A stretch of DNA of 52,231 nt from Planctomycetaceae bacterium (lineage in GTDB: Bacteria; Planctomycetota; Planctomycetia; Planctomycetales; Planctomycetaceae). The stretch covers positions 1 to 52,231 of the forward strand of contig PBMZ01000002.1 in NCBI GenBank assembly GCA_002722955.1, in the 5' to 3' direction. The notes beneath the pieces were generated by a model, which worked only from the letters and a program-made list of their open reading frames with translations, was not told the origin of the DNA and did no database searches. How positions within the stretch are numbered: position 1 is the stretch's first letter; every line of letters starts with the position of its first letter. The position numbers were made by a program, and so were the translations under genes. Positions 2,658 to 52,231 of the stretch are shown here, piece after piece.

Positions 2658-3038
2658 ATGTATAAGAGATACATCGGAAAGACGGACTACTTTGTTGGAG
2701 AACTCGAAATATCAACGCTGATCAGTATTGGGAATGAAGCCGTTGATATGGGGATCGTGATTAACAGTTACTCCGATGAACATAACTTTGAATACTCTAC
2801 GAAGGACCTGGGCGAGATGGTTCAAGTGTTCGTACAGGTTCCTGGTAAAGTGACACTTGAGTTTTTAAAGGGCGTCAAGGCCTTGTTTTCGCTACAGTTC
2901 AACGAAGATTCGTTTGTGTCTATGTATCAAAGTTTCAGTGGCAAAAAGGACTATCCTCTTGGTGAAATGCGTACGTCATCGCTAACCGAAATTCAGAAGA
3001 GAGCGGTCGAAATGGGGGGCGTAATCAAGGCCTTGTGA
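2658..3038 (+). CDS. Small protein with an internal duplication; probably 5'-truncated
   Basis: I do not recognise the family. The 126-aa frame contains two related stretches: residues 1-35 (MYKRYIGKTDYFVGEL...) and 89-123 (MYQSFSGKKDYPLGEM...), both ending in a helix like NEAVDMGIVI / KRAVEMGGVI. The similarity extends upstream of the chosen ATG (TVS before the first repeat, FVS before the second), so coding homology starts before the first Met. No ribosome binding site precedes 2658, and the DNA just upstream is transposase debris. The 5' end was therefore probably lost with the insertion, and the gene may be a remnant. The frame remains open from 2493, but that part reads antisense to the transposase fragment. 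Confidence 0.4.
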   Translation: MYKRYIGKTDYFVGELEISTLISIGNEAVDMGIVINSYSDEHNFEYSTKDLGEMVQVFVQVPGKVTLEFLKGVKALFSLQFNEDSFVSMYQSFSGKKDYPLGEMRTSSLTEIQKRAVEMGGVIKAL

Positions 3039-3091
3039 GCAGTAAGTCTTGCCGTAGCTACAACAGATCGAAAGAAATTGAAGGGTTCTTA

Positions 3092-4708
3092 ATGAGTTTT
3101 CGAAACATAACTTTAGCAATTCTGAGCCTGGCCATAGCCGCGAACGTAATCGGGCCGATCACTGCCGCTGCGAAAGACGATCGCCCAAACATCGTGTTGA
3201 TCATGGCCGATGATCTGGGCTTTGCGGACATTGGCTGTTATGGATCGGAAATCGATACTCCAAATCTCGACAAGCTTGCTTCGCAGGGGGTGAGATTCCG
3301 ACAGTTTTACAACACCGCCAAATGTCACTCGTCCCGCGTGTCGTTGTTGACGGGGCTTTACTGTGACCAAGCCGGTGGAGCGAAATTAAATCGTGGTGCA
3401 ACGATCGCTGAAGTGCTAGCGTCCGCGGGCTATTCAACTTCGATGGTTGGGAAATGGCACCTCAGCAAGCAGCCGACGGATTTTGGTTTTCAACTCTATT
3501 GGGGGCATCTCTCTGGTGCGACCAACTTTTTCACCGGTGATAGCTCGTTCCGCTTGAACGGTGAAAACTGGAAAGTCCCTGCTGAATTGAATGGACGACC
3601 GTTCTACACAACGCACGCGATTACTGATTTTGGCATTCAGTTCTTGGACGAAGTGACGAAAGAAGACAAACCGTTTCTACTATACATGGCATTCAACGCA
3701 CCGCACTATCCGCTGCAAGCTCGTGAACAAGACGTCAAAAAGTACGATGGGCGTTACGATGCAGGTTGGGACAGCTTGCGAGCCGAACGGCACAAACGCC
3801 AACTGAAGTCTGGCTTATTGCCCAAGAAATGGAATTTAAGTAAACGCCCCAAACACGTTCCCGCTTGGAAGAGCCTTGATACCAAGGAACAACAATGGGA
3901 AGCGGATCGCATGGAAGTATTCGCGGCGATGGTCGATGTGCTTGACCAAAACATTGGCCGCATGGTGGAACATTTGAAGAAGAAGGGCGTTTACGAGAAC
4001 ACGCTGATTATGTTCTGTTCGGATAATGGAGCCTGTCCGTTCGAGCGAACTCGCGGTCGGTATCTTAAGCCGTGGGATCCGAAATCCTATTGGACATACG
4101 ATTCCAGTTGGGCGTGGATGGGTAACACACCGTTTCGGCTCTACAAACAAAATCAACACGAAGGCGGCATTTCCTCGCCGATGATCGCTCATTGGCCCGC
4201 TGGGTTGAAAGCGAAAGCGGGCTCTGTCACCGATCAGCCTGGTCACTTGATCGATTTCATGGCCACGTTCATTGAACTTTCGGGAGCCAAATATCCCCAG
4301 CAAATCGGCGACCGCAAAATTGATCCATTACAAGGACGTTCACTGTTACCAATTCTTGAAGGCAAAGAACGCGATCCTCACGACACGCTTTACTTTCACT
4401 TCGGCATGGACCGAGCTTTACGGCAAGGACCGTGGAAATTGGTCTCCGCCAAACAGGGGAAGTGGGAGCTCTACAATTTGGACGAAGATCGCACGGAAAC
4501 AAACGATGTGTCGAGCAGTCACCCCGATCGCGTTGAGTCGATGGTGAAAGAGTGGTTTCGATTGGCTGCAGACGTCGATCGTCTGAGTGGCAGGCAACTG
4601 GCTCGCGTCAAAGACAAAGTCACTCAACTCAACTTCCGCAAGGACACGACTTCAGGCAACGCCGGATCCGGAAAAAACAAAAAAAAGAAAGGCTCACGGA
4701 AACCTTAG
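3092..4708 (+). CDS. Secreted sulfatase (arylsulfatase A type), CxSxR active site
   Basis: A 538-aa exported sulfatase. The signal peptide is residues 1-27; the ATG at 3092 follows GAAGG and is preferred over the longer frame from 3035. The catalytic domain starts with PNIVLIMADDLGFADIGCYG, giving the metal ligands D40 and D41. The maturation motif is C78-H-S-S-R followed by LLTG, so Cys78 would become formylglycine; it is the CxSxR variant rather than CxPxR. The CSDNGA segment supplies the second Asp/Asn pair of the Ca2+ site. The C-terminal sub-domain ends with a Lys-rich tail (KNKKKKGSRKP). It would release sulfate from glycans or other sulfate esters in the periplasm. It needs a formylglycine-generating enzyme, and none of catalytic type is present in this window. 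Confidence 0.93.
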   Translation: MSFRNITLAILSLAIAANVIGPITAAAKDDRPNIVLIMADDLGFADIGCYGSEIDTPNLDKLASQGVRFRQFYNTAKCHSSRVSLLTGLYCDQAGGAKLNRGATIAEVLASAGYSTSMVGKWHLSKQPTDFGFQLYWGHLSGATNFFTGDSSFRLNGENWKVPAELNGRPFYTTHAITDFGIQFLDEVTKEDKPFLLYMAFNAPHYPLQAREQDVKKYDGRYDAGWDSLRAERHKRQLKSGLLPKKWNLSKRPKHVPAWKSLDTKEQQWEADRMEVFAAMVDVLDQNIGRMVEHLKKKGVYENTLIMFCSDNGACPFERTRGRYLKPWDPKSYWTYDSSWAWMGNTPFRLYKQNQHEGGISSPMIAHWPAGLKAKAGSVTDQPGHLIDFMATFIELSGAKYPQQIGDRKIDPLQGRSLLPILEGKERDPHDTLYFHFGMDRALRQGPWKLVSAKQGKWELYNLDEDRTETNDVSSSHPDRVESMVKEWFRLAADVDRLSGRQLARVKDKVTQLNFRKDTTSGNAGSGKNKKKKGSRKP

Positions 4709-9503: not shown

Positions 9504-10973
9504 ATGCTCTTTTCTCTTCGCGTTTTGCACGCTCGATATGCCAGCATTGTTTACGTCGCAATGATTCTTTCTGCACTTGGCATTCCGTCAATTGCCGCTG
9601 AATCGTCGCCACCGAACATTGTTCTGATTCTGGCCGATGATTTGGGCTACGGCGACTTGGGCTGCTTCGGACAGAAAACGTTGAAGACACCACGGTTGGA
9701 TGAAATGGCTCAGCAGGGCATGCGGTTCACACAGTTCTACGCTGGCTGCACGGTGTGTGCCCCTTCGCGGTGTGTCTTGATGACAGGCCAGCACATGGGA
9801 CGCACAGTGGTTCGAGGCAACTCGACGGCGCCGATTGTGATTCCGCCGGATCAAGAGACGGTTGCTTCGATCTTGAAGCAGGCTGGTTACCAAACCGCTT
9901 GTATTGGCAAGTGGGGCATTGGTACGCCCGACAATTTCACGAACCCAAATGATGTGGGCTTCGATCACTTCTTTGGCTACATCAACATGTGGCATGCGCA
10001 CAACTTCTATCCTGAATTTCTGATACGCAACGGCGAGGTTGTGAAATTGAACAACGTTGTGGCGGACAAGTGGAAACAGTGGCGCGATCCAAAACTGCCG
10101 ATGGCTGGTCGTGGCGTCGCTGTGAAGCGTGAAGAGTATGCTCCAGATTTGTTCACGGAAGATGCGCTGAGATTTATTCGATCCAACAAAGACAATCCAT
10201 TCTTCTTATACTTCGCGATGAATATTCCTCATGCAAACAACGAAGCCGGAAACGCCGGAATGGAAGTGCCAGATTTAGGGCCGTTTGCGGATAAAGAATG
10301 GCCGGCACCCGAAAAGGGGTTCGCGGCGATGATTCGCAATATCGATCGTGACTGTGGTCGCATCATCGATCTGCTTAACGAACTGAAAATCGCGGAGAAT
10401 ACACTCGTATTGTTTACATCAGACAACGGCCCACATCAGGAAGGTGGGCACCAAGCGGACTTCTTTGATTCAAACGGTAAGCTGCGCGGCATCAAACGCG
10501 ATTTGACCGAAGGCGGCATTCGCGTCCCCACCATTGCCTGGTGGCCGGGAACCGTCAAACAAGGAACAGTAGATGATGCGCATTGGTACTTTGGCGACGT
10601 GATGGCGACAGTCGCCGAACTTGCTGGAGTTGATCCGCCTGAAGGAATCGACAGCGATAGCTTCGTTGGCCCTTTACGAGGAATTCCGCGCGAGAAACGT
10701 TGGAAGCGGAAATCGAACATGTATTGGGAATTCTATTCAAAGCGTTCAGCACAGCGTTCGGCTCAAGCAGTTCGATTCGGAAAGTGGAAGGCGATTCGAA
10801 AGCCGATGTTCACAGGGCCGATCGAACTGTACGACATGTCGAATGATGCGAGCGAGAAACGAGATTACTCAAAGCGCCGTCCGGACCTTGCGCGGCATGC
10901 GACGAATTTGTTGAATAAGATGCACGAGCCGGATCCCAACTGGCAGATCGTTGGAGCGAAGACGCGGAAGTAG
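9504..10973 (+). CDS. Secreted sulfatase (arylsulfatase type), CxPxR active site
   Basis: A 489-aa sulfatase. The ATG at 9504 has GAGGAAG just upstream. Residues 1-32 form a signal peptide; then PNIVLILADDLGYGDLGC provides metal ligands D45 and D46. The maturation motif is C85-A-P-S-R followed by LMTGQHMGRT, the canonical CxPxR formylglycine site. FTSDNGPHQEGGH supplies the second metal-binding Asp/Asn and the His of the active site, and LRGIKRDLTEGGIRVP is a typical C-terminal family motif. It differs from the sulfatase at 3092 in the CxPxR motif and in its C-terminal region and lacks the Lys-rich tail, so the two are not recent duplicates. It would act in the periplasm on sulfated glycans. 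Confidence 0.94.
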   Translation: MLFSLRVLHARYASIVYVAMILSALGIPSIAAESSPPNIVLILADDLGYGDLGCFGQKTLKTPRLDEMAQQGMRFTQFYAGCTVCAPSRCVLMTGQHMGRTVVRGNSTAPIVIPPDQETVASILKQAGYQTACIGKWGIGTPDNFTNPNDVGFDHFFGYINMWHAHNFYPEFLIRNGEVVKLNNVVADKWKQWRDPKLPMAGRGVAVKREEYAPDLFTEDALRFIRSNKDNPFFLYFAMNIPHANNEAGNAGMEVPDLGPFADKEWPAPEKGFAAMIRNIDRDCGRIIDLLNELKIAENTLVLFTSDNGPHQEGGHQADFFDSNGKLRGIKRDLTEGGIRVPTIAWWPGTVKQGTVDDAHWYFGDVMATVAELAGVDPPEGIDSDSFVGPLRGIPREKRWKRKSNMYWEFYSKRSAQRSAQAVRFGKWKAIRKPMFTGPIELYDMSNDASEKRDYSKRRPDLARHATNLLNKMHEPDPNWQIVGAKTRK

Positions 10974-42643: not shown

Positions 42644-43147
42644 TTATCCTATTGCCAAAGTAATGACGCCGCCGACCATTAGACAGGCAGCGACGATCTC
42701 ATCAAGCTCCTGACGGTTTGGCAGATCGTGTTCCATCACGACAAACATCTTTTCCAGTTCTGTGGGGATCTGCACAACGGGCGACAGCACAACCACGATG
42801 GTACGGTTCTGCTTGCCGGTGATGATCTGTCGGGCCAGTGCCTGGACGACCTCAGCTGACTGCAAAAAGCGATGGAAGTTTTGCAGTATCAGAATCGCCG
42901 TGCCGTCCGGCGTAGCAAGTGCGTTGATTGACCGGATCGCAGCCAACGGATCGTTACTGCTGGCATCCTGCTCGGTTTGGCCGGAAACGCTCAGCCCGGC
43001 CTCGATGTCCCAGGTGGCCAGTTGCCACTGCTCGTCGCGGCAGAGCTGGGCGATTTCAGTGAGGGCGTCCTGGTGTTCGTGGGACTCGATCCAGATGCCT
43101 GTAAAACATGCTCGCACGTATTCGGAGAGACGAGTATTGATTTTCAA
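42644..43147 (-). CDS. Truncated Ycf46-like AAA ATPase (N-terminal part only)
   Basis: A 167-aa frame that overlaps the DUF2997 stop and starts at TTG 43147, eight bases after an excellent AGGAG. The N-terminus (INTRLSEYVRACFTGIWIESHEHQDALTEIAQLC, then WQLATWDIEAGL, AILILQNFHRFLQS and NRTIVVVLSPVVQIPTELEKMFVVMEHDLP) matches the first, catalytically inactive domain of Ycf46-type AAA proteins, which are normally about 450-520 aa. After PNRQELDEIVA the match stops and a short unrelated tail (CLMVGGVITLAIG) leads to a stop. The Walker A and B ATPase domain is missing. The gene is therefore truncated, exactly at the boundary with the host-type 1225-aa gene. Function is probably lost. Confidence 0.75.
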   Translation of the reverse strand: MKINTRLSEYVRACFTGIWIESHEHQDALTEIAQLCRDEQWQLATWDIEAGLSVSGQTEQDASSNDPLAAIRSINALATPDGTAILILQNFHRFLQSAEVVQALARQIITGKQNRTIVVVLSPVVQIPTELEKMFVVMEHDLPNRQELDEIVAACLMVGGVITLAIG

Positions 43148-43356
43148 GGTTGATCTCCTGTTGAGTGACGTTGTTGGTTGGATTGCTGCTGACTGGCCTG
43201 CTGATGAAACTCAGTCGTCAGCTGTTCTTGAGTTCGCTCACCCAGTGCCTGTTCGATGAACTGACTGGCCGCCCGGCATTCGCTGCCGATGAAGCCCCTG
43301 GTCTGCACCTGGGTTTGTCCCGTCGGCGTGACGACGATCTCGATGGTCTTGCTCAT
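43144..43356 (-). CDS. DUF2997 family small protein
   Basis: A 70-aa protein, MSKTIEIVVTPTGQTQVQTRGF..., matching DUF2997 (a short beta-hairpin 'eivispdGev.vet.GF.G..C' family). Residues 25-45 (GSECRAASQFIEQALGE) hold the conserved GxxC and helix. The C-terminal 25 residues are Gln/Ser-rich and probably disordered. Its ATG overlaps the DUF1257 stop by four bases (ATGA), and its own stop overlaps the start of the AAA gene, so the three are translationally coupled. The DUF1257-DUF2997-AAA trio is a recurrent module in bacteria and phages; the biochemical role is not known. Confidence 0.82.
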   Translation of the reverse strand: MSKTIEIVVTPTGQTQVQTRGFIGSECRAASQFIEQALGERTQEQLTTEFHQQASQQQSNQQRHSTGDQP

Positions 43357-43721
43357 GCGGCACCTCCCACCGTGACCGTCAACTTGATAGAGCCGTCGGC
43401 CAGTGACTGCTCGGTGACCGTGTGCCCCTTCCTGCGAGATTCGAGTTTCGCTTTCTCGACTGCATACCCCTGAAGGAAGCGATCCAGTTGTGCCTGCTTG
43501 CCCCAGCGACCGTTGTAATTGTCGTAGCGGGCCTGGCCGGATTCCGTGTCGAACACGGCCGGGTATTTCCAGCCGGGCAGCTTGACGATCACACCAGTGG
43601 CCTCGCCGCTGAACAGTTTCACGGTGTCGTGCGTCGGTGCTTCCAGCTTGAGACGCTGACACGCGGCACCAACCGCGGCTGCGTCCCGGACTTCGGTTTT
43701 GATTTTCACAATGTGGCTCAT
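43353..43721 (-). CDS. DUF1257 family protein (Ycf35-like)
   Basis: A 122-aa protein beginning MSHIVKIKTEVRDAAAVGAACQRL, the signature opening of DUF1257 (Ycf35-like). The start at 43721 is set by GGAGAAA about seven bases upstream; the frame is open to 43784 but has no earlier ribosome binding site. Later motifs are KLPGWKYPAVFDTESGQARYDNYNG and LDRFLQGYAVEKAKLESRRKG, then a C-terminal beta-strand (SIKLTVTVGG). It is 28 bases after the stop of the lipoprotein gene and overlaps DUF2997 by four bases. In chloroplasts and cyanobacteria Ycf35 and Ycf46 occur together, and here relatives of both are adjacent, which supports a shared function. That function is unknown. Confidence 0.85.
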   Translation of the reverse strand: MSHIVKIKTEVRDAAAVGAACQRLKLEAPTHDTVKLFSGEATGVIVKLPGWKYPAVFDTESGQARYDNYNGRWGKQAQLDRFLQGYAVEKAKLESRRKGHTVTEQSLADGSIKLTVTVGGAA

Positions 43722-43749
43722 GGGATTTCTCCTTGTGTTGAGTGAATGG

Positions 43750-44382
43750 TTAGGACGGCGGCTCGACAGCATTGGTCGAGTCACCTGTGATCAATGCGTG
43801 CTGGGCGGACTCATCCTCGTGTGTCAGCTTTCGAGGACGCAGTTGCGGGCCGGGCAACAGCCGTGGCTCGTCACTCGTCACTTCCAGCACCAGCATTTCA
43901 GCCACCGCGGCATGGTCCGGATCCTGCGATTGCATTTGCCGGATGACATAGACCGCGACGATCAGCGGCAGCAGGCAGGCCAGAGTCAGGCCAATGTTCT
44001 GAATCGCTGTGGCCACGATGGGATCCCTGTGGCGTTGTTCCGCGATCTCACGCCGATCCTGTTCCAGCTGCTCCCGCCCGGCATCGACCGTTGCCTGCTG
44101 GTCGTTGACCTGTGATGTCAGCTCCTGCTGGGCCGCGATCAATTCACGCCGAGCTTCGGCATCACTTTCGACCAGTTCCTTCGCCGTTTGGGCCAGTTGA
44201 TGGCTCTCTTCGACGATCGCCTGGGACTGATCCGCCATGCGGTCATTTTGTCGGGCCTGTTCTTTGACGGCCTGCTGGGCAAATTCCGCCAGTCGCTGGT
44301 CACGCATGTCGGGTGTGTCACTGCATCCGATCACTGTCAGTAGCAGCAGGATGGGGACGATCGCGATCTGGGTTCGTTTCAT
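43750..44382 (-). CDS. Lipoprotein with long coiled coil and a C-terminal transmembrane segment
   Basis: A 210-aa protein. The ATG at 44382 has GGAG eight bases upstream; a second ATG at 44388 is too close to that site. The N-terminus is a lipoprotein signal with lipobox LTVIG-C20. Residues about 25-118 are rich in Gln, Glu, Ala and Arg with a heptad character (AEFAQQAVKEQARQNDRMADQS..., REQLEQDRREIAEQRHR), a long coiled coil. Residues about 124-145 (AIQNIGLTLACLLPLIVAVYVI) form a transmembrane helix, followed by an acidic tail. A protein with a lipid anchor at one end and a membrane helix at the other could bridge two membranes or span one. Family not recognised. Its 5' end overlaps the 65-aa membrane-protein gene by 65 bases. 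Confidence 0.75.
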   Translation of the reverse strand: MKRTQIAIVPILLLLTVIGCSDTPDMRDQRLAEFAQQAVKEQARQNDRMADQSQAIVEESHQLAQTAKELVESDAEARRELIAAQQELTSQVNDQQATVDAGREQLEQDRREIAEQRHRDPIVATAIQNIGLTLACLLPLIVAVYVIRQMQSQDPDHAAVAEMLVLEVTSDEPRLLPGPQLRPRKLTHEDESAQHALITGDSTNAVEPPS

Positions 44383-44515
44383 CGGCATTTCTCCAGTGGT
44401 CAAAAACGCGGGCCAGGAGCGATTGCAGAGCACGTCGCAGTCGAAACTCCCTGGCCCAGCCAAGGGTGAGCAGCACGGCCAGCACACTGCTGGCCGCAAC
44501 GAGAGCGAATGTCAT
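44318..44515 (-). CDS. Small membrane protein, first gene of the minus-strand operon
   Basis: A 65-aa protein starting at 44515, five bases after AAGGAGAAA, a very strong ribosome binding site. Residues 2-20 (TFALVAASSVLAVLLTLGW) form one transmembrane helix; the rest is basic (REFRLRRALQSLLARVFDHWR) then Asp/Pro-rich. It overlaps the following lipoprotein gene by 65 bases in another frame. No family is recognised. The arrangement of a small N-anchored protein overlapping a lipoprotein gene recalls phage Rz/Rz1 spanin pairs, but that is an analogy only, since the lipoprotein here is larger and itself coiled-coil. Confidence 0.6.
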   Translation of the reverse strand: MTFALVAASSVLAVLLTLGWAREFRLRRALQSLLARVFDHWRNADETNPDRDRPHPAATDSDRMQ

Positions 44516-47244: not shown

Positions 47245-50200
47245 ATGAAAGCAGAACTGACAGAGCAATTTGAATCTCTGTGGGATTCTGGAGACTCGCC
47301 TCCCGATCTGGTCTCGTTTCTGGAGCAGCACGATGCGTCCGCTGCCGATGATGTGGTCGCCGTTGTGCTTCTGGACCAGCAGCGTCGCTGGAAAACTGAC
47401 TCTCCGCTGAAGGTCGAGGAATATCTGTCTTTTATTCCCGGGCTGGCAGGTCAGGCTGACATCCAGCTGCGGCTGGCTGTGGGCGAGTTTGAGGCCCGGC
47501 AGGGATCGGAGACAGTCCCGAATATCCATGAATTCACAGAGCGGTTCGGTGCAATCAGTGACTCGCTCCGCATCCGGCTGTCGGAACTGACTGGTGAAAC
47601 ACTGGTGTACGATCCGCAGACGGACTGCCTGCGGATCGGCCGTTACCGCTTGGGCCAGATCCTGGGAGAAGGGGCGTTTGGACGGGTTTACCTGGCGTTT
47701 GACGAGGAGCTCGAGCGACAGGTGGCAATCAAGGTTCCCACCGCAGAGCGGCTGCGGAACACCGAACATGCGAACGAGTACCTGACCGAAGCCCGCACGG
47801 TGGCGAGCCTGAATCATCCGAACATTGTGCCAGTGCATGATGTGGGGAGAACCCCGGAAGGTGCGATCTATGTGGTTTCGAAGTTCATCGAAGGCCGTAC
47901 GCTGGGCGACCAGATCAAACAGGACCGCCCCGGTCCTGAGCAGGCTGCGAACCTGCTGGCAACGATCGCCCTGGCTCTGCACCACGCTCATGAACGACGA
48001 CTGGTTCACCGGGACGTCAAACCGGGAAATATCCTGCTGGAAGACCCGCAGGCAACCCCGTACGTCGCCGATTTCGGACTGGCCATTCGGGAAGAGGATT
48101 ACCTGAAGGACAGCCGCCGGGCAGGCACCCCGTCGTACATGAGCCCCGAGCAGGCCCGTGGTGAAGGACATCGGCTCGATGGTCGCAGCGACATCTTTTC
48201 TCTGGGCGTGATCCTGTATGAAATGCTGACCGGTCAGAAGCCTTTTCGCGGCAGCACACCCAACGAACTGTTCCATCAGTTGATCTCGGTGGATCCGACA
48301 CCTCCGCGTGAACTGGATGACACGATTGCCCCGGAACTGGAACGTATCTGCCTGAAGGCCCTTTCCAGGCGGGTTTCCGACCGCTACGCCACCGCTGCGG
48401 AATTTGCGGACGACCTGCGGCACTGGAATCAGTCACCGCAGCAGAAACAGCAGGTACAGCAGATCGTTCCCAAAGGATTGCGATCGTTCGACAGCAATGA
48501 TGCGGACTTTTTCCTGGACCTGCTGCCGGGGCAGCGGAATCGGGACGGCCTGCCGGAAAGCATCCAGTTCTGGAAAGCAAGGATTGAAGAAGCCGATCCC
48601 GACAGGACATTCAGTGTCGGCCTGATCTATGGACCCTCGGGGTGTGGTAAGTCGTCGCTGGTCAAAGCGGGATTACTGCCGCACCTGTCTGACAGCGTAA
48701 TCGCGGTGTATGTCGAGGCCACACCGGACGAGACGGAAACGCGTATCCTGCGAGGGCTGAGAAAACGGCTACCGGACCTGCCGGAAGATGCCGGACTGGC
48801 GGATACGCTGGCGGCTGTACGACGTGCTCAGTGCCAGAAGGTTGTGATCATCCTTGACCAGTTCGAACAGTGGCTGCATGCCCACTCAGCGGCACCGGAC
48901 GCGGAGCTGGTGAACGCATTGCGGCAGTGTGATGGTGGACAGCTACAGGCCATCGTGATGGTGCGTGACGACTTTTCGATGGCGGCCGCTCGGTTTATGG
49001 ACTGGGTTGATGTTCCCATTGTCCAGGGGCACAACTTTGCGACAGTCGATCTGTTCGATCTGGACCACGCCCGGCAAGTACTCATCAAATTCGGGCAGGG
49101 ATTCGGCAAATTACCGGCCAACACGGGCAACCTGTCTGATGTGGAACGGCAGTTTGTTGACGACGTAGCGTCCGGTCTGTCGCAGGATGACAAAGTTGTC
49201 TCGGTACGTCTGGCTCTGTTTGCCGAAATGGTCAAAGGCAAGCCCTGGATTCCTGCCACACTGGAAGACGTGGGTGGTACAGCAGGTGTGGGTGTTAATT
49301 TTCTGGAAGAGACATTCAGCAGTCGCACGGCGAATCCGAAACACCGTCAACATCAGCAGGCCGCACGGGAAGTGCTGAAGGCCCTGCTGCCTGAAGTTGG
49401 CTCTGACATTAAGGGCCACATGAAGTCGCATGCGGAACTGCTGGAAGTGTCTGGGTACGGCAACCGCCCCAATGACTTCCATACCTTGCTGCGAATCCTG
49501 GACGGCGAACTGCGGCTGATTACACCTACCGACCCCGAAGGATTCCAGACGGAATCCGGCAGTGATCCCGGCTCGAAGTTCTACCAGTTGACGCACGACT
49601 ATCTGGTGCCCTCGTTACAGACCTGGCTGACTCGCAAACAGCAGGAAACCCGCAAGGGCCGGGCGGAACTGAAGCTGACTGAACGGTCTGCTCTGTGGAC
49701 CGCCAAACCGGAGAACCGGCATCTGCCGTCTCTGTTGGAATGGGCCAGTATCAGAACGCTGACCGACAAGCAGAAGTGGTCCAGACCGCAGCGGAAGATG
49801 ATGGGCCAGGCAGGACGAGTGCATGGACTGCGTTCGGCTCTGGTCATGGTAGGGCTGGCAGCCGTGGTGTTTGCTGGCGTGACCATCAGGAATGCCGTCG
49901 AAACAGGACGCCTGGAACTTGCAGCCCAGAATAAGGAACAACAGAACGCCAATTACGCTAAAGCCCTTGTCGAGTCATTGTCGGCGGCGAATACCGCCGA
50001 TGTGAAAGATCTGGTTGTCGAGATTTCGGCGTATCAGCAATGGGCAACTCCGCTGTTGAAAGAAATCGTTGCCAACGAAAACAGCAGCCCCACGGCGAAG
50101 CTCCACGCCAGTCTGGCTCTCGTCAGGAATGATCCTTCGCGGGTCGATTTCCTGTTGCAGCAACTGCTGGCGGCAAGTCCTGACGATGTGCCGATCATCG

Positions 50201-51867
50201 TGGCGTTCCTGGAACCGTACAGGGAGCAGGTGAAGAATCAACTGTGGAATACGATTCAGACCGGCAGCAACAGTCAGCGTATCCGAGCGGCAGCGGCGTT
50301 GGCTGAATATAGTGCGGAAGACAAACAGTGGGAGCAGGAACGTGAGGATGTCGTCACCGCACTCGTGTCGGTTCCCGCTTCGGAGTCCGACGAATGGATC
50401 GAAATGCTGCGTCCTGTGGGCACTCTTCTGGCTGATCCCCTGAAACAGCGATTTCAAGAGCACAGTGACGGGCGTAGCAATGAACGCCCCATTGTCGCTG
50501 CCGCATTGTCTGTTTTTCTCAAGGACAAGCCCGAAACTCTGACTCCTCTGATCCTGCTGGCCGACAACGACCGTGAGTTTCAGCCATTGCTGGCGGCTCT
50601 ACGCAATCACACGCAGGCGGTAATTCCCGAACTTCAAACAAGGACAAAACAATCGCCACCCGTAGGAGCCGAACCTGCTGAACGGGATTCGTTTTTGAAA
50701 AAGCAGGCCAATGCAGCGGCTTGTCTGCTGGAGTTGGGTGAAACGGAGTCGGTCTGGCCCCTGTTCCAGCAGACCCCTGATCCGTCTCTTCGCAGTTTTC
50801 TCATTGACCGGCTCGCTCGTTTGGGAGCCACCCCGGATGCTCTCGCCGCAAAGATAAAACAAGAGTCTGATCCGGCGAGCCGTTACGCTCTCATTCTGGC
50901 TTTGGGGCATTTTGATGCACAGAACTTGTCGAGTGAACAACGCCAGTCGTCCACAGAACAACTGGCGACACTCTACCGGGACGACCCTGATCCGGGGGTA
51001 CATTCGGCATCGAGGCGGACGCTGCGAAAGTGGCGGCAGGCTGATCTTTGCAAACAGATCGACATTGAAGTGGGTAAAGCGGGGCGACAGAGACGGCAAT
51101 GGTTTGTCAATTCACAAGGGCAGACCTTCGCAGTGATCAATGGCCCGGTGGAGTTCCTGATGGGCGAAAAGACTGAAACAAGGGAGCCGAAGAAATTGAC
51201 TCTGTCGCACACCTTCGCCGTGGCGAATTACGAAGTGACGGTGGAGCAGTTCCAGAAATTCCGCAGGGAGCACAAGCACGACGCTGGATATGCACAGCAG
51301 ACGGATAGTCCGGTCAACGTGGTAACGTGGTTTGACGCCGTGGCCTACTGCAACTGGCTGAACGCACAGGAAGGCATCCCGAAAGATCAGTGGTGTTACG
51401 AGCCGAACGATAAAGGCGAGTATGCGGAAGGTATGAAGATCGCCGCTGATTTTCTGTCACGCACCGGCTATCGTGTGCCCACCGACGAGGAGTGGGAGTT
51501 TATGTGTCGTGCCGGATCGACCAGCACCTATGGATTCGGGGAACCCTTCGAATTGCTCCGCCGTTATGCATGGTATAACGACAACAGCGAGTCGCACTTG
51601 TGGTCTGTGGGAATGCAGTTGCCGAACCGCTATGGGGTGTTCGATATGCACGGCAACGCTGTGGAGTGGTGCCATAGCTTGTATTCATCGTCAGCAGGTC
51701 AAGGCGACGTGGAAGTAAAACGATCAGATAGGCGTGTGTTGCGTGGCGGCTCGTTCCGCTATCGCTCGTCGGTCGTCCGTTCCGCCGCCCGTCTCAGCTA
51801 CCAGCCGGTCAACCGTACCGTCGATCTCGGTTTCCGTCCGGCCAGAACTTACCACTTATCTCCTTAA
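47245..51867 (+). CDS. DGR target: Ser/Thr kinase - STAND-type NTPase - transmembrane - SUMF1/C-type-lectin-fold protein
   Basis: A 1540-aa protein. Residues 1-130: helical N-terminal region. Residues about 133-392: Hanks-type Ser/Thr kinase with G-loop GEGAFG (141-146), VAIK (K163), HRDVKPGN (D257), DFG (276-278) and the SPEQ of the activation segment; all catalytic residues are present. Residues about 410-860: P-loop NTPase with GPSGCGKSS (463-471) and Walker B VIILDQFEQW (D538), of the STAND type (nSTAND1-like). Residues about 862-883: one membrane helix (ALVMVGLAAVVFAGV). Residues about 884-1285: helical HEAT-like repeats. Residues about 1290-1540: SUMF1/FGE-type C-type-lectin fold. Kinase and NTPase would be cytoplasmic and the C-terminal domain outside. 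The FGE cysteine pair is absent (Y1506, V1511), so it is not a sulfatase maturase. The last ~40 codons look like a DGR variable region. The ATG at 47245 is preceded by GGAG almost directly, so the ribosome binding site is poor. Confidence 0.9.
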   Translation: MKAELTEQFESLWDSGDSPPDLVSFLEQHDASAADDVVAVVLLDQQRRWKTDSPLKVEEYLSFIPGLAGQADIQLRLAVGEFEARQGSETVPNIHEFTERFGAISDSLRIRLSELTGETLVYDPQTDCLRIGRYRLGQILGEGAFGRVYLAFDEELERQVAIKVPTAERLRNTEHANEYLTEARTVASLNHPNIVPVHDVGRTPEGAIYVVSKFIEGRTLGDQIKQDRPGPEQAANLLATIALALHHAHERRLVHRDVKPGNILLEDPQATPYVADFGLAIREEDYLKDSRRAGTPSYMSPEQARGEGHRLDGRSDIFSLGVILYEMLTGQKPFRGSTPNELFHQLISVDPTPPRELDDTIAPELERICLKALSRRVSDRYATAAEFADDLRHWNQSPQQKQQVQQIVPKGLRSFDSNDADFFLDLLPGQRNRDGLPESIQFWKARIEEADPDRTFSVGLIYGPSGCGKSSLVKAGLLPHLSDSVIAVYVEATPDETETRILRGLRKRLPDLPEDAGLADTLAAVRRAQCQKVVIILDQFEQWLHAHSAAPDAELVNALRQCDGGQLQAIVMVRDDFSMAAARFMDWVDVPIVQGHNFATVDLFDLDHARQVLIKFGQGFGKLPANTGNLSDVERQFVDDVASGLSQDDKVVSVRLALFAEMVKGKPWIPATLEDVGGTAGVGVNFLEETFSSRTANPKHRQHQQAAREVLKALLPEVGSDIKGHMKSHAELLEVSGYGNRPNDFHTLLRILDGELRLITPTDPEGFQTESGSDPGSKFYQLTHDYLVPSLQTWLTRKQQETRKGRAELKLTERSALWTAKPENRHLPSLLEWASIRTLTDKQKWSRPQRKMMGQAGRVHGLRSALVMVGLAAVVFAGVTIRNAVETGRLELAAQNKEQQNANYAKALVESLSAANTADVKDLVVEISAYQQWATPLLKEIVANENSSPTAKLHASLALVRNDPSRVDFLLQQLLAASPDDVPIIVAFLEPYREQVKNQLWNTIQTGSNSQRIRAAAALAEYSAEDKQWEQEREDVVTALVSVPASESDEWIEMLRPVGTLLADPLKQRFQEHSDGRSNERPIVAAALSVFLKDKPETLTPLILLADNDREFQPLLAALRNHTQAVIPELQTRTKQSPPVGAEPAERDSFLKKQANAAACLLELGETESVWPLFQQTPDPSLRSFLIDRLARLGATPDALAAKIKQESDPASRYALILALGHFDAQNLSSEQRQSSTEQLATLYRDDPDPGVHSASRRTLRKWRQADLCKQIDIEVGKAGRQRRQWFVNSQGQTFAVINGPVEFLMGEKTETREPKKLTLSHTFAVANYEVTVEQFQKFRREHKHDAGYAQQTDSPVNVVTWFDAVAYCNWLNAQEGIPKDQWCYEPNDKGEYAEGMKIAADFLSRTGYRVPTDEEWEFMCRAGSTSTYGFGEPFELLRRYAWYNDNSESHLWSVGMQLPNRYGVFDMHGNAVEWCHSLYSSSAGQGDVEVKRSDRRVLRGGSFRYRSSVVRSAARLSYQPVNRTVDLGFRPARTYHLSP
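51733..51850 (+). other. Predicted DGR variable region (VR) at the 3' end of the target gene
   Basis: This stretch encodes RVLRGGSF (residues 1497-1504), then a run of varied residues, then GFRPART, the frame in which DGR variable regions of SUMF1/CLec type are set. Between 51731 and 51840 only 8 of 110 bases are A, against about 20 of 70 in the preceding stretch, as expected if template adenines have been replaced. Many codons in the varied part end in C or T (CGC, TAT, GTC, CTC, AGC, TAC, GAT), as if derived from AAC/AAT in a template. The true VR ends and its template repeat cannot be seen in this window. Confidence 0.75.
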
Positions 51868-51896
51868 CCACTTTACCCCTTATCCTTTACCCTCAT

Positions 51897-51911
51897 ACCG
51901 CCGAAGGCGGT
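51897..51911 (+). promoter_or_regulatory. GC-rich hairpin just downstream of the VR (candidate DGR cis element next to the IMH)
   Basis: accgcc (51897-51902) and ggcggt (51906-51911) form a perfect 6-bp stem with a gaa loop, 30 bases after the target stop. Several DGRs have such a GC-rich stem with a GA-rich loop beside the initiation-of-mutagenic-homology (IMH) end of the variable region, where it is required for homing. No T-tract follows, so a terminator is less likely. Confidence 0.6.
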
Positions 51912-51990
51912 CGACATTTGAAAATCGCCATCTGTCATACTGGCAGTTTGAGATTCGGCCTTCTGTTGGCAAAAAACAACGGAGGCCACG

Positions 51991-52231
51991 ATGAAGAGGC
52001 AGGACGAACTGGTCATCATCACGAAGACCTACGACCTGATTTTGTGGAGTTGCAATCACACAGGCCGGTTTCCAAGACAGCATCGTTTCGTGTTAGGCGA
52101 GCGACTGGAACGCAGCCTGTATGACCTGCTGGAAACACTGATTCAGGCCAAATACAGCCGAGAGCGAACGCCCCTCTTGAACGACGCCAACCTGAAACTG
52201 GAAATCCTCCGCTTCCAGGTGCGACTGGCAA
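51991..52231 (+). CDS. avd: Avd, DGR accessory variability determinant (partial, cut by right edge)
   Basis: Eighty codons are visible, running off the window without a stop. The ATG at 51991 follows a perfect GGAGG (51981-51985) by five bases. The protein (MKRQDELVIITKTYDLILW, RFPRQHRFVLGERLERSLYDLLETLIQAKY, LLNDANLKLEILRFQVRLA) has the pattern of Avd/four-helix-bundle family proteins: a D/E-L-x-I-x-x-K-x-Y-D opening helix, the F-P-R-x-x-R-F-x-L-G-x-R turn and long amphipathic helices. Avd forms a pentameric barrel that binds the reverse transcriptase and template RNA and is essential for mutagenic homing. Full-length members are about 110-130 aa, so only about two thirds is present. It lies 123 bases downstream of the predicted target gene, as in many DGRs. 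Confidence 0.85.
   Translation, partial: MKRQDELVIITKTYDLILWSCNHTGRFPRQHRFVLGERLERSLYDLLETLIQAKYSRERTPLLNDANLKLEILRFQVRLA

Follow-up and report, generated by a model that had tools for sequence, protein, structure and literature searches.

The end of the DNA analysed here very likely holds the left-hand portion of a cellular diversity-generating retroelement (DGR), with its reverse transcriptase (RT) and template repeat (TR) likely lying within about 1.3 kb past the contig end, and the predicted role of the system is to rewrite the tip of a putative membrane-anchored kinase-STAND receptor. The window, by which we mean the whole 52,231-nt stretch, is the entire contig C2, and its sequence stops at 52231, within the avd gene. 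The locus occupies the last 5 kb and consists of a long target gene, which carries the variable region (VR), and the opening 80 codons of avd:

47245-51867, + strand: DGR target gene, ATG start, intact ORF of 1540 aa.
51733-51848, + strand: VR, in the 3'-terminal part of the target, with adenine-biased differences from seven related TRs.
51897-51911, + strand: inverted repeat ACCGCC-GAA-GGCGGT, 48 nt after the VR, a predicted DNA hairpin or cruciform with a C(GNA)G triloop.
51981-51985, + strand: GGAGG, the avd ribosome-binding site; 5 nt separate it from the ATG.
51991-52231, + strand: 5' part of avd, 80 aa (51991-52230), open at the contig end.

Elsewhere in the window, the short genes at 42644-44499 on the minus strand are presumably a pair like DUF1257/DUF2997 beside a possible shortened AAA ATPase gene. 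We likewise take 3035-4708 and 9504-10973 to be a pair of genes resembling sulfatases, with frames like those of a sialidase and a ceramidase further along.

The target protein combines three domains recognized by Pfam profiles: a Ser/Thr kinase (Pkinase, residues 134-382, 2.4e-45), an nSTAND1 NTPase (residues 411-822, 2.3e-19), which has the P-loop GPSGCGKS at 463, and an FGE-sulfatase/CLec domain (PF03781, residues 1303-1534, 1.6e-37). The kinase motifs GEGAFGRV, VAIK, HRDVKPGN and DFG are retained. The C-terminal end of the protein reads RVLRGGSF...GFRPARTYHLSP, so that the frame on which the earlier note had based its reading does lie at the end of the ORF 47245-51867. The same note had labelled this end as SUMF1/CLec, which was correct, as indicated by the PF03781 match and by the match to TvpA of Treponema denticola (PDB 2y3c), the closest solved sequence to the FGE domain of the target (6.9e-21). 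Hydropathy predicts one transmembrane (TM) helix at residues ~864-882, after nSTAND1; a similar peak is present in 12 of 17 targets inspected and absent in the other five. In a PADLOC search, the best 25 of the 33 matches to the target all lay over the kinase (residues 122-480), and none of them over the tip. A fold prediction made from 15 sequences was of low confidence (mean pLDDT 53) and no conclusion uses it. The target has an N-terminal putative effector (the kinase), a central STAND NTPase and a C-terminal putative sensor (the FGE domain with the VR) in one chain, which is the layout of the antiviral STAND (Avs/NLR-like) receptors.

The differences between the VR and the templates of related loci are confined to adenines where those templates agree. 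In columns invariant among seven related TRs, which are not fully independent since those of L012 and L016 come from one genome, 14 of 23 adenines and none of 46 other positions are different in the VR (Fisher p = 5e-9). All 23 invariant adenine columns fall at codon positions 1 and 2, and of those that differ in the VR seven are at position 1 and seven at position 2. As these adenines lie in AAY codons, residues would change and no stops would arise. When the seven TRs are taken singly, 12-16 of 84-91 non-adenine positions also differ from the VR, which is expected because the templates are foreign, and the Fisher p ranges from 3e-8 to 9e-6; compared with the L099 TR, the VR is different at 20 of the 29 template adenines and at 12 of the 87 remaining bases. 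The program used for finding TR/VR pairs requires at least 75% of the mismatches to be on adenine, so its counts are no test, and the column and L099 comparisons serve instead. A VR had previously been placed at 51733-51850, close to the limits obtained here, and the adenine bias supports its being one. The 116-base VR in the window ends in AGAAC and the related TRs end in AGCAC or AGTAC, which resembles an IMH. In the six ungapped VR/TR pairs inspected, all of them from relatives (L099, L011, L014, L015, L016 and L020), the VR ends in AGAAC or AGGAC and the TR in AGCAC or AGTAC.

It could be argued that the window carries an ordinary kinase-STAND-FGE protein followed by a generic four-helix protein of the 23S-intervening-sequence type, with no DGR, as FGE domains without DGRs share an RGGS...GFR-like end. 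The genome itself encodes two such proteins of kinase-nSTAND1-FGE composition, on contigs C141 and C138. However, these paralogs have no VR-like end and match the L011 TR at 44 and 38 of 84 non-adenine positions, against 72 of 84 for the window VR, and the restriction of the invariant-column differences to adenines (14/23 versus 0/46) in practice refutes this explanation.

The avd frame at 51991 is as the earlier note described it, including the ORF, the ribosome-binding site and the 123 bases between the stop of the target and the avd ATG, and the profile search that the note had proposed from this position gave 53.2 bits with PF22296 (bAvd; cut-off 40). The NCBIfam profile DivGenRetAVD gave 76.9 bits over 74 of its 104 positions, missing its cut-off of 80 by 3.1 bits, the gene being cut by the contig end. 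The dN/dS values of 0.02-0.07 against the five closest relatives indicate strong purifying selection on the window avd, whose frame is intact up to the contig end. In viral contigs, no relative of this avd was confirmed with peptide patterns of the one 80-aa query, eight stretches having matched a pattern.

Matches to the avd profile of any strength (E <= 1e-3) occur in 70 of the 170 genomes of the family, and such common weak matches speak in favor of a generic four-helix protein. The matches form two groups, the strong one comprising all 26 places besides the window with at least 67.6 bits, and the weak one represented by 14 nearly full-length places picked at 46.2 to 30.4 bits (weak fragments, which may include true avd remnants, were skipped). 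The window avd scored 76.5 bits in the family search, within the strong range, versus at most 46.2 bits in the weak group. Moreover, an RT match lies within the stretch fetched at 21 of the 26 strong loci, one of which (L115) has a partial RT, and at none of the 14 weak loci; four of the five strong loci without RT have 17-622 bases after avd, and the fifth, L113, has 7.9 kb. The frame at 51991 was therefore rejected as a generic four-helix protein, and a locus without any DGR is extremely improbable.

Since avd starts right after the target at the contig end, the RT and template of the proposed DGR are likely to be found just past 52231. The assembly, of 7.10 Mb in 220 contigs and 79.28% completeness, has no DGR-type RT among the RT profile matches inspected and no second avd, and a DNA search of it with 51640-51990, which could miss a TR, returned this segment itself and a 31-base match. 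The absence of an RT is weakly informative, given that the assembly is only 79% complete and that the contig stops inside avd. Two contigs were rejected as sources of the missing RT: C44, which bears a group II intron maturase with an HNH domain on a stretch of 35% GC, and C166, with an endonuclease-RT-RNase H frame. The C44 stretch (L160) is likely a foreign contig in the bin, its GC content contrasting with the 53-57% of the window, C141 and C138 stretches. The C166 frame (L161), with 1386 aa, is likely contamination as well; we take it to resemble a eukaryotic non-LTR element.

As the RT and TR of the window itself would lie beyond the contig end, the right half was examined on relatives. 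The nearest complete locus, L099, lies on a 1.24-Mb contig of genome G162 and has, in this order, the target with its VR, the hairpin, avd, RT and TR. Its RT has 355 aa with the motifs IGNQTSQ and YVDD, and its TR begins 2 nt past the RT stop. The VR and TR of L099 differ at 13 of 116 bases; TR adenines account for 12 of these, and the remaining one falls in the AGAAC/AGCAC end. The TR also follows the RT in L011, L012, L014, L015, L016 and L020. With the spacing of L099, the RT of the window would start near 52338 and the TR would lie near 53407-53522. The right half that the earlier note expected past avd is thus present in related loci such as L099, in the order avd, RT, TR. Further relatives have other orders, with the RT upstream of avd or the TR between avd and RT, so the order expected in the window rests on its nearest relatives.

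The RT is upstream of avd in L097, L100, L027, L028, L030, L031 and L033-L035. In a second avd group of ~67-81 bits (L117 and L119-L122, with a TR also in L114 and L118), the TR comes directly after avd (+13 to +53) and the RT, where seen, after the TR, so the order is avd-TR-RT and not avd-RT-TR. At L104, L105, L107 and L020 one TR pairs with two VRs per locus, which flank avd-RT in L104, L107 and L020 and are both upstream in L105. Positions 2965-3180 of L011 and the segment past the TR of L099, about 200-300 bases, look alike by eye and contain inverted repeats, possibly being part of the DGR RNA.

The presence of a VR and avd does not guarantee that of an RT, and a VR or avd can outlive it. 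Among 28 named relatives' loci, an RT match was observed in 18 and none in ten, avd being broken or cut in eight of these ten and intact in L009 and L017, with no RT match in 10.0 kb and 5.0 kb downstream, respectively. None of the four loci of this set with an avd at least 91% identical to that of the window is a clean complete DGR: besides L009, L008 has a truncated RT and its TR was not found, L010 has a shifted avd end and 664 nt remaining after it, and L011 has a stop in avd and only a fragment of the target, with RT and TR present. Frames of avd that are broken or cut occur in L010, L011, L022, L025, L026, L029 and L032. These seven loci, together with L008, L009, L017 and the lack of a DGR RT in the assembly, are what would be expected if the window held a decayed DGR, in which the VR and avd are left, the RT and/or TR have been lost, and the tip is frozen or served by a TR or RT elsewhere in the genome. 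Nevertheless, neither the target ORF nor the window avd, as far as it extends, is disrupted, avd shows strong purifying selection against its relatives, and an assembly of 79% completeness that stops in avd gives the missing RT little weight; therefore, we consider decay unlikely. With several near relatives lacking an RT or having a broken avd, a working RT and TR next door to the window avd is, in our judgement, probable with some uncertainty.

The inverted repeat at 51897-51911 is the sole C(GNA)G hairpin with a stem of at least 6 in the 52-kb window, and its stem by itself is not significant compared with shuffled sequences (p 0.057). Of the 51 distinct avd loci, 47 have 130 nt of upstream sequence, and in 20 of these the 130 nt contain such a triloop with a stem of at least 5, against 0 of 14 loci with weak avd matches and 62 of 12163 random stretches. 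The 32 loci inspected at first, hand-picked from the 51, gave it in 17, and the loop motif was chosen after looking at them; a wider search added 17 loci, of which 16 were checked and three had the motif. The stems vary in sequence among loci yet remain paired. The hairpin downstream of the VR is a predicted target-site feature of the DGR in the window.

The avd gene is far more similar among some planctomycetes than RpoB, being 93-97% identical among three genomes (G000, which is that of the window, G162 and G431) whose RpoB parts are 68-77% identical. The window avd shows 94% identity and dS 0.65 to that of G162, with 77% and dS 2.28 for the RpoB part, and 94% and dS 1.10 to that of G431, which belongs to another family, with 68% and saturation for the RpoB part. 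For G044, where the evidence for transfer is weaker because its contig has 4 kb, the values are 93% and dS 0.51, with 62% for the L2 part. The receptor bodies have diverged as well: between the window and L099, the kinase is 67% identical with saturated synonymous sites, nSTAND1 75% with dS 2.9, and the FGE domain excluding the VR 48%, also saturated, against 94% and dS 0.65 for avd. This contrast is seen within single contigs and is thus independent of binning. The L099 RT has dS 0.73 to L008 and 1.11 to L011, the L011 avd being at dS 2.02. Among 294 pairs of 26 avd copies with usable RpoB (G102, with six aligned RpoB residues, was left out), avd is the better conserved of the two in 39, with a margin of at least 0.15 in three, precisely those among G000, G162 and G431, and the difference has a median of -0.29.

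As avd is far less diverged than RpoB and the receptor bodies, the simplest reading is that a cassette with the VR end, the hairpin, avd and probably RT-TR has moved horizontally between planctomycetes and joined a resident FGE receptor, which these sequence comparisons suggest as probable. Alternatively, a special constraint on the synonymous sites of avd could possibly account for its conservation, as could the use of a more conserved N-terminal part, since the comparison covers the first 74-80 avd residues. A broader view may be tentatively proposed, toward which we are about evenly disposed with a slight lean to doubt: that planctomycetes carry a mobile cassette (VR end, hairpin, avd, RT and TR) which attaches to the 3' ends of resident FGE-tipped receptors of kinase-STAND, TIR-STAND, SIR2-NACHT and caspase- or trypsin-type, making fixed sensors hypervariable. 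The window would then be a fresh case, and the two undiversified paralogs the state before attachment.

Sixteen target proteins from relatives, chosen for a VR-type end, all have an FGE domain. A kinase is present in nine and nSTAND1 in six (four of them with a kinase); TIR was found in two, both from one genome, NACHT in two (one with SIR2), a trypsin-like and a caspase-like domain in one each, and FGE alone in one. We infer that the TR RNA would be copied by the RT with Avd, adenines being misread, and that the mutated cDNA would replace the VR at a target marked by the AGAAC end and the hairpin. With the single TM helix predicted by hydropathy, the kinase and STAND domains would be cytoplasmic, and the FGE/CLec tip would lie beyond the inner membrane. 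Binding of a ligand to the variable tip would then trip the STAND switch and the kinase, and selection would favor variants whose tip fits a ligand from a phage or another foreign source, giving a predicted heritable repertoire of antigen sensors like the one that Dore et al. suggested for other bacteria.

A variable tip might instead set the substrate of the kinase or tune signalling within the cell itself. The kinase is the commonest partner in the relatives scanned (9/16), as it also is in cyanobacteria according to the portion of PMC7517822 available. Yet related cassettes serve TIR-nSTAND1, SIR2-NACHT, caspase-like and trypsin-like proteins, to which no phosphorylation substrate applies, and the predicted TM helix would part the tip from the kinase; this role is somewhat unlikely, and we favor antigen sensing.

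The type of locus is already known, and the transfer of the cassette onto differing receptors is the part worth following. With the window, the immune-type receptors diversified by DGRs gain a receptor kinase that has a STAND switch and whose diversified tip is placed across a predicted membrane helix. If the RT and template lie past the contig end, they would go on altering the predicted sensor tip of this immune-type receptor. Moreover, one diversified protein and two fixed paralogs make a natural comparison in one genome, and the mismatch between the divergence of avd and that of the receptor body makes the question of how DGRs gain new targets directly testable.

Concerning known systems, the FGE domain of the window aligns with TvpA, which we take to be a DGR protein, as its name fits, through the RVLRGGS...LGFR stretch; the solved chain has 294 residues and the match is limited to the FGE part. 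The part of PMC5006420 available is consistent with TvpA being a DGR protein. Conversion of adenines during TR-to-VR retrotransposition is described in the section consulted of Guo et al. (2011, PMC3240598). The same source reports for the target site of Bordetella phage BPP-1 a GC-rich hairpin downstream of the VR, as in the window; the phage hairpins have stems of 7-10 bp, 4-nt GRNA loops and a distance of 4-34 bp from the VR, versus 6 bp, the 3-nt GAA loop and 48 nt here. GRA triloops have been noted in archaeal DUSEL4 DGRs (excerpt of Paul et al. 2015, PMC4372165).

As regards the receptors, the DGRs of Thiohalocapsa PB-PSB1 and relatives likewise have a STAND target (nSTAND1/NACHT) with a C-terminal CLec/FGE domain holding the VR, as stated in the text available from Dore et al. 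(2024, PMC10907252), where the legend to a target figure includes Pkinase in its list of abbreviated domains. In comparison, the window is from a planctomycete, its locus is cut, and a single chain unites the kinase, nSTAND1, FGE and the predicted TM helix. The idea that STAND receptors sense antigens with their diversified CLec tip is, in the same excerpt, a hypothesis which its authors regard as yet to be tested. DGR-linked conflict systems are also discussed in a part of PMC7159879. A text search for kinase gave no match in Roux et al. (2021) nor in PMC10053308. For cyanobacterial DGR targets, the available portion of Vallota-Eastman et al. (2020, PMC7517822) describes a Ser/Thr kinase likewise fused to a diversified C-terminal CLec, with paralogs in the same genomes, and offers both autoinhibition and substrate-recognition versions of its action. 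That portion makes no mention of STAND, whereas the target in the window has nSTAND1 and a predicted TM helix between the kinase and the CLec domain.
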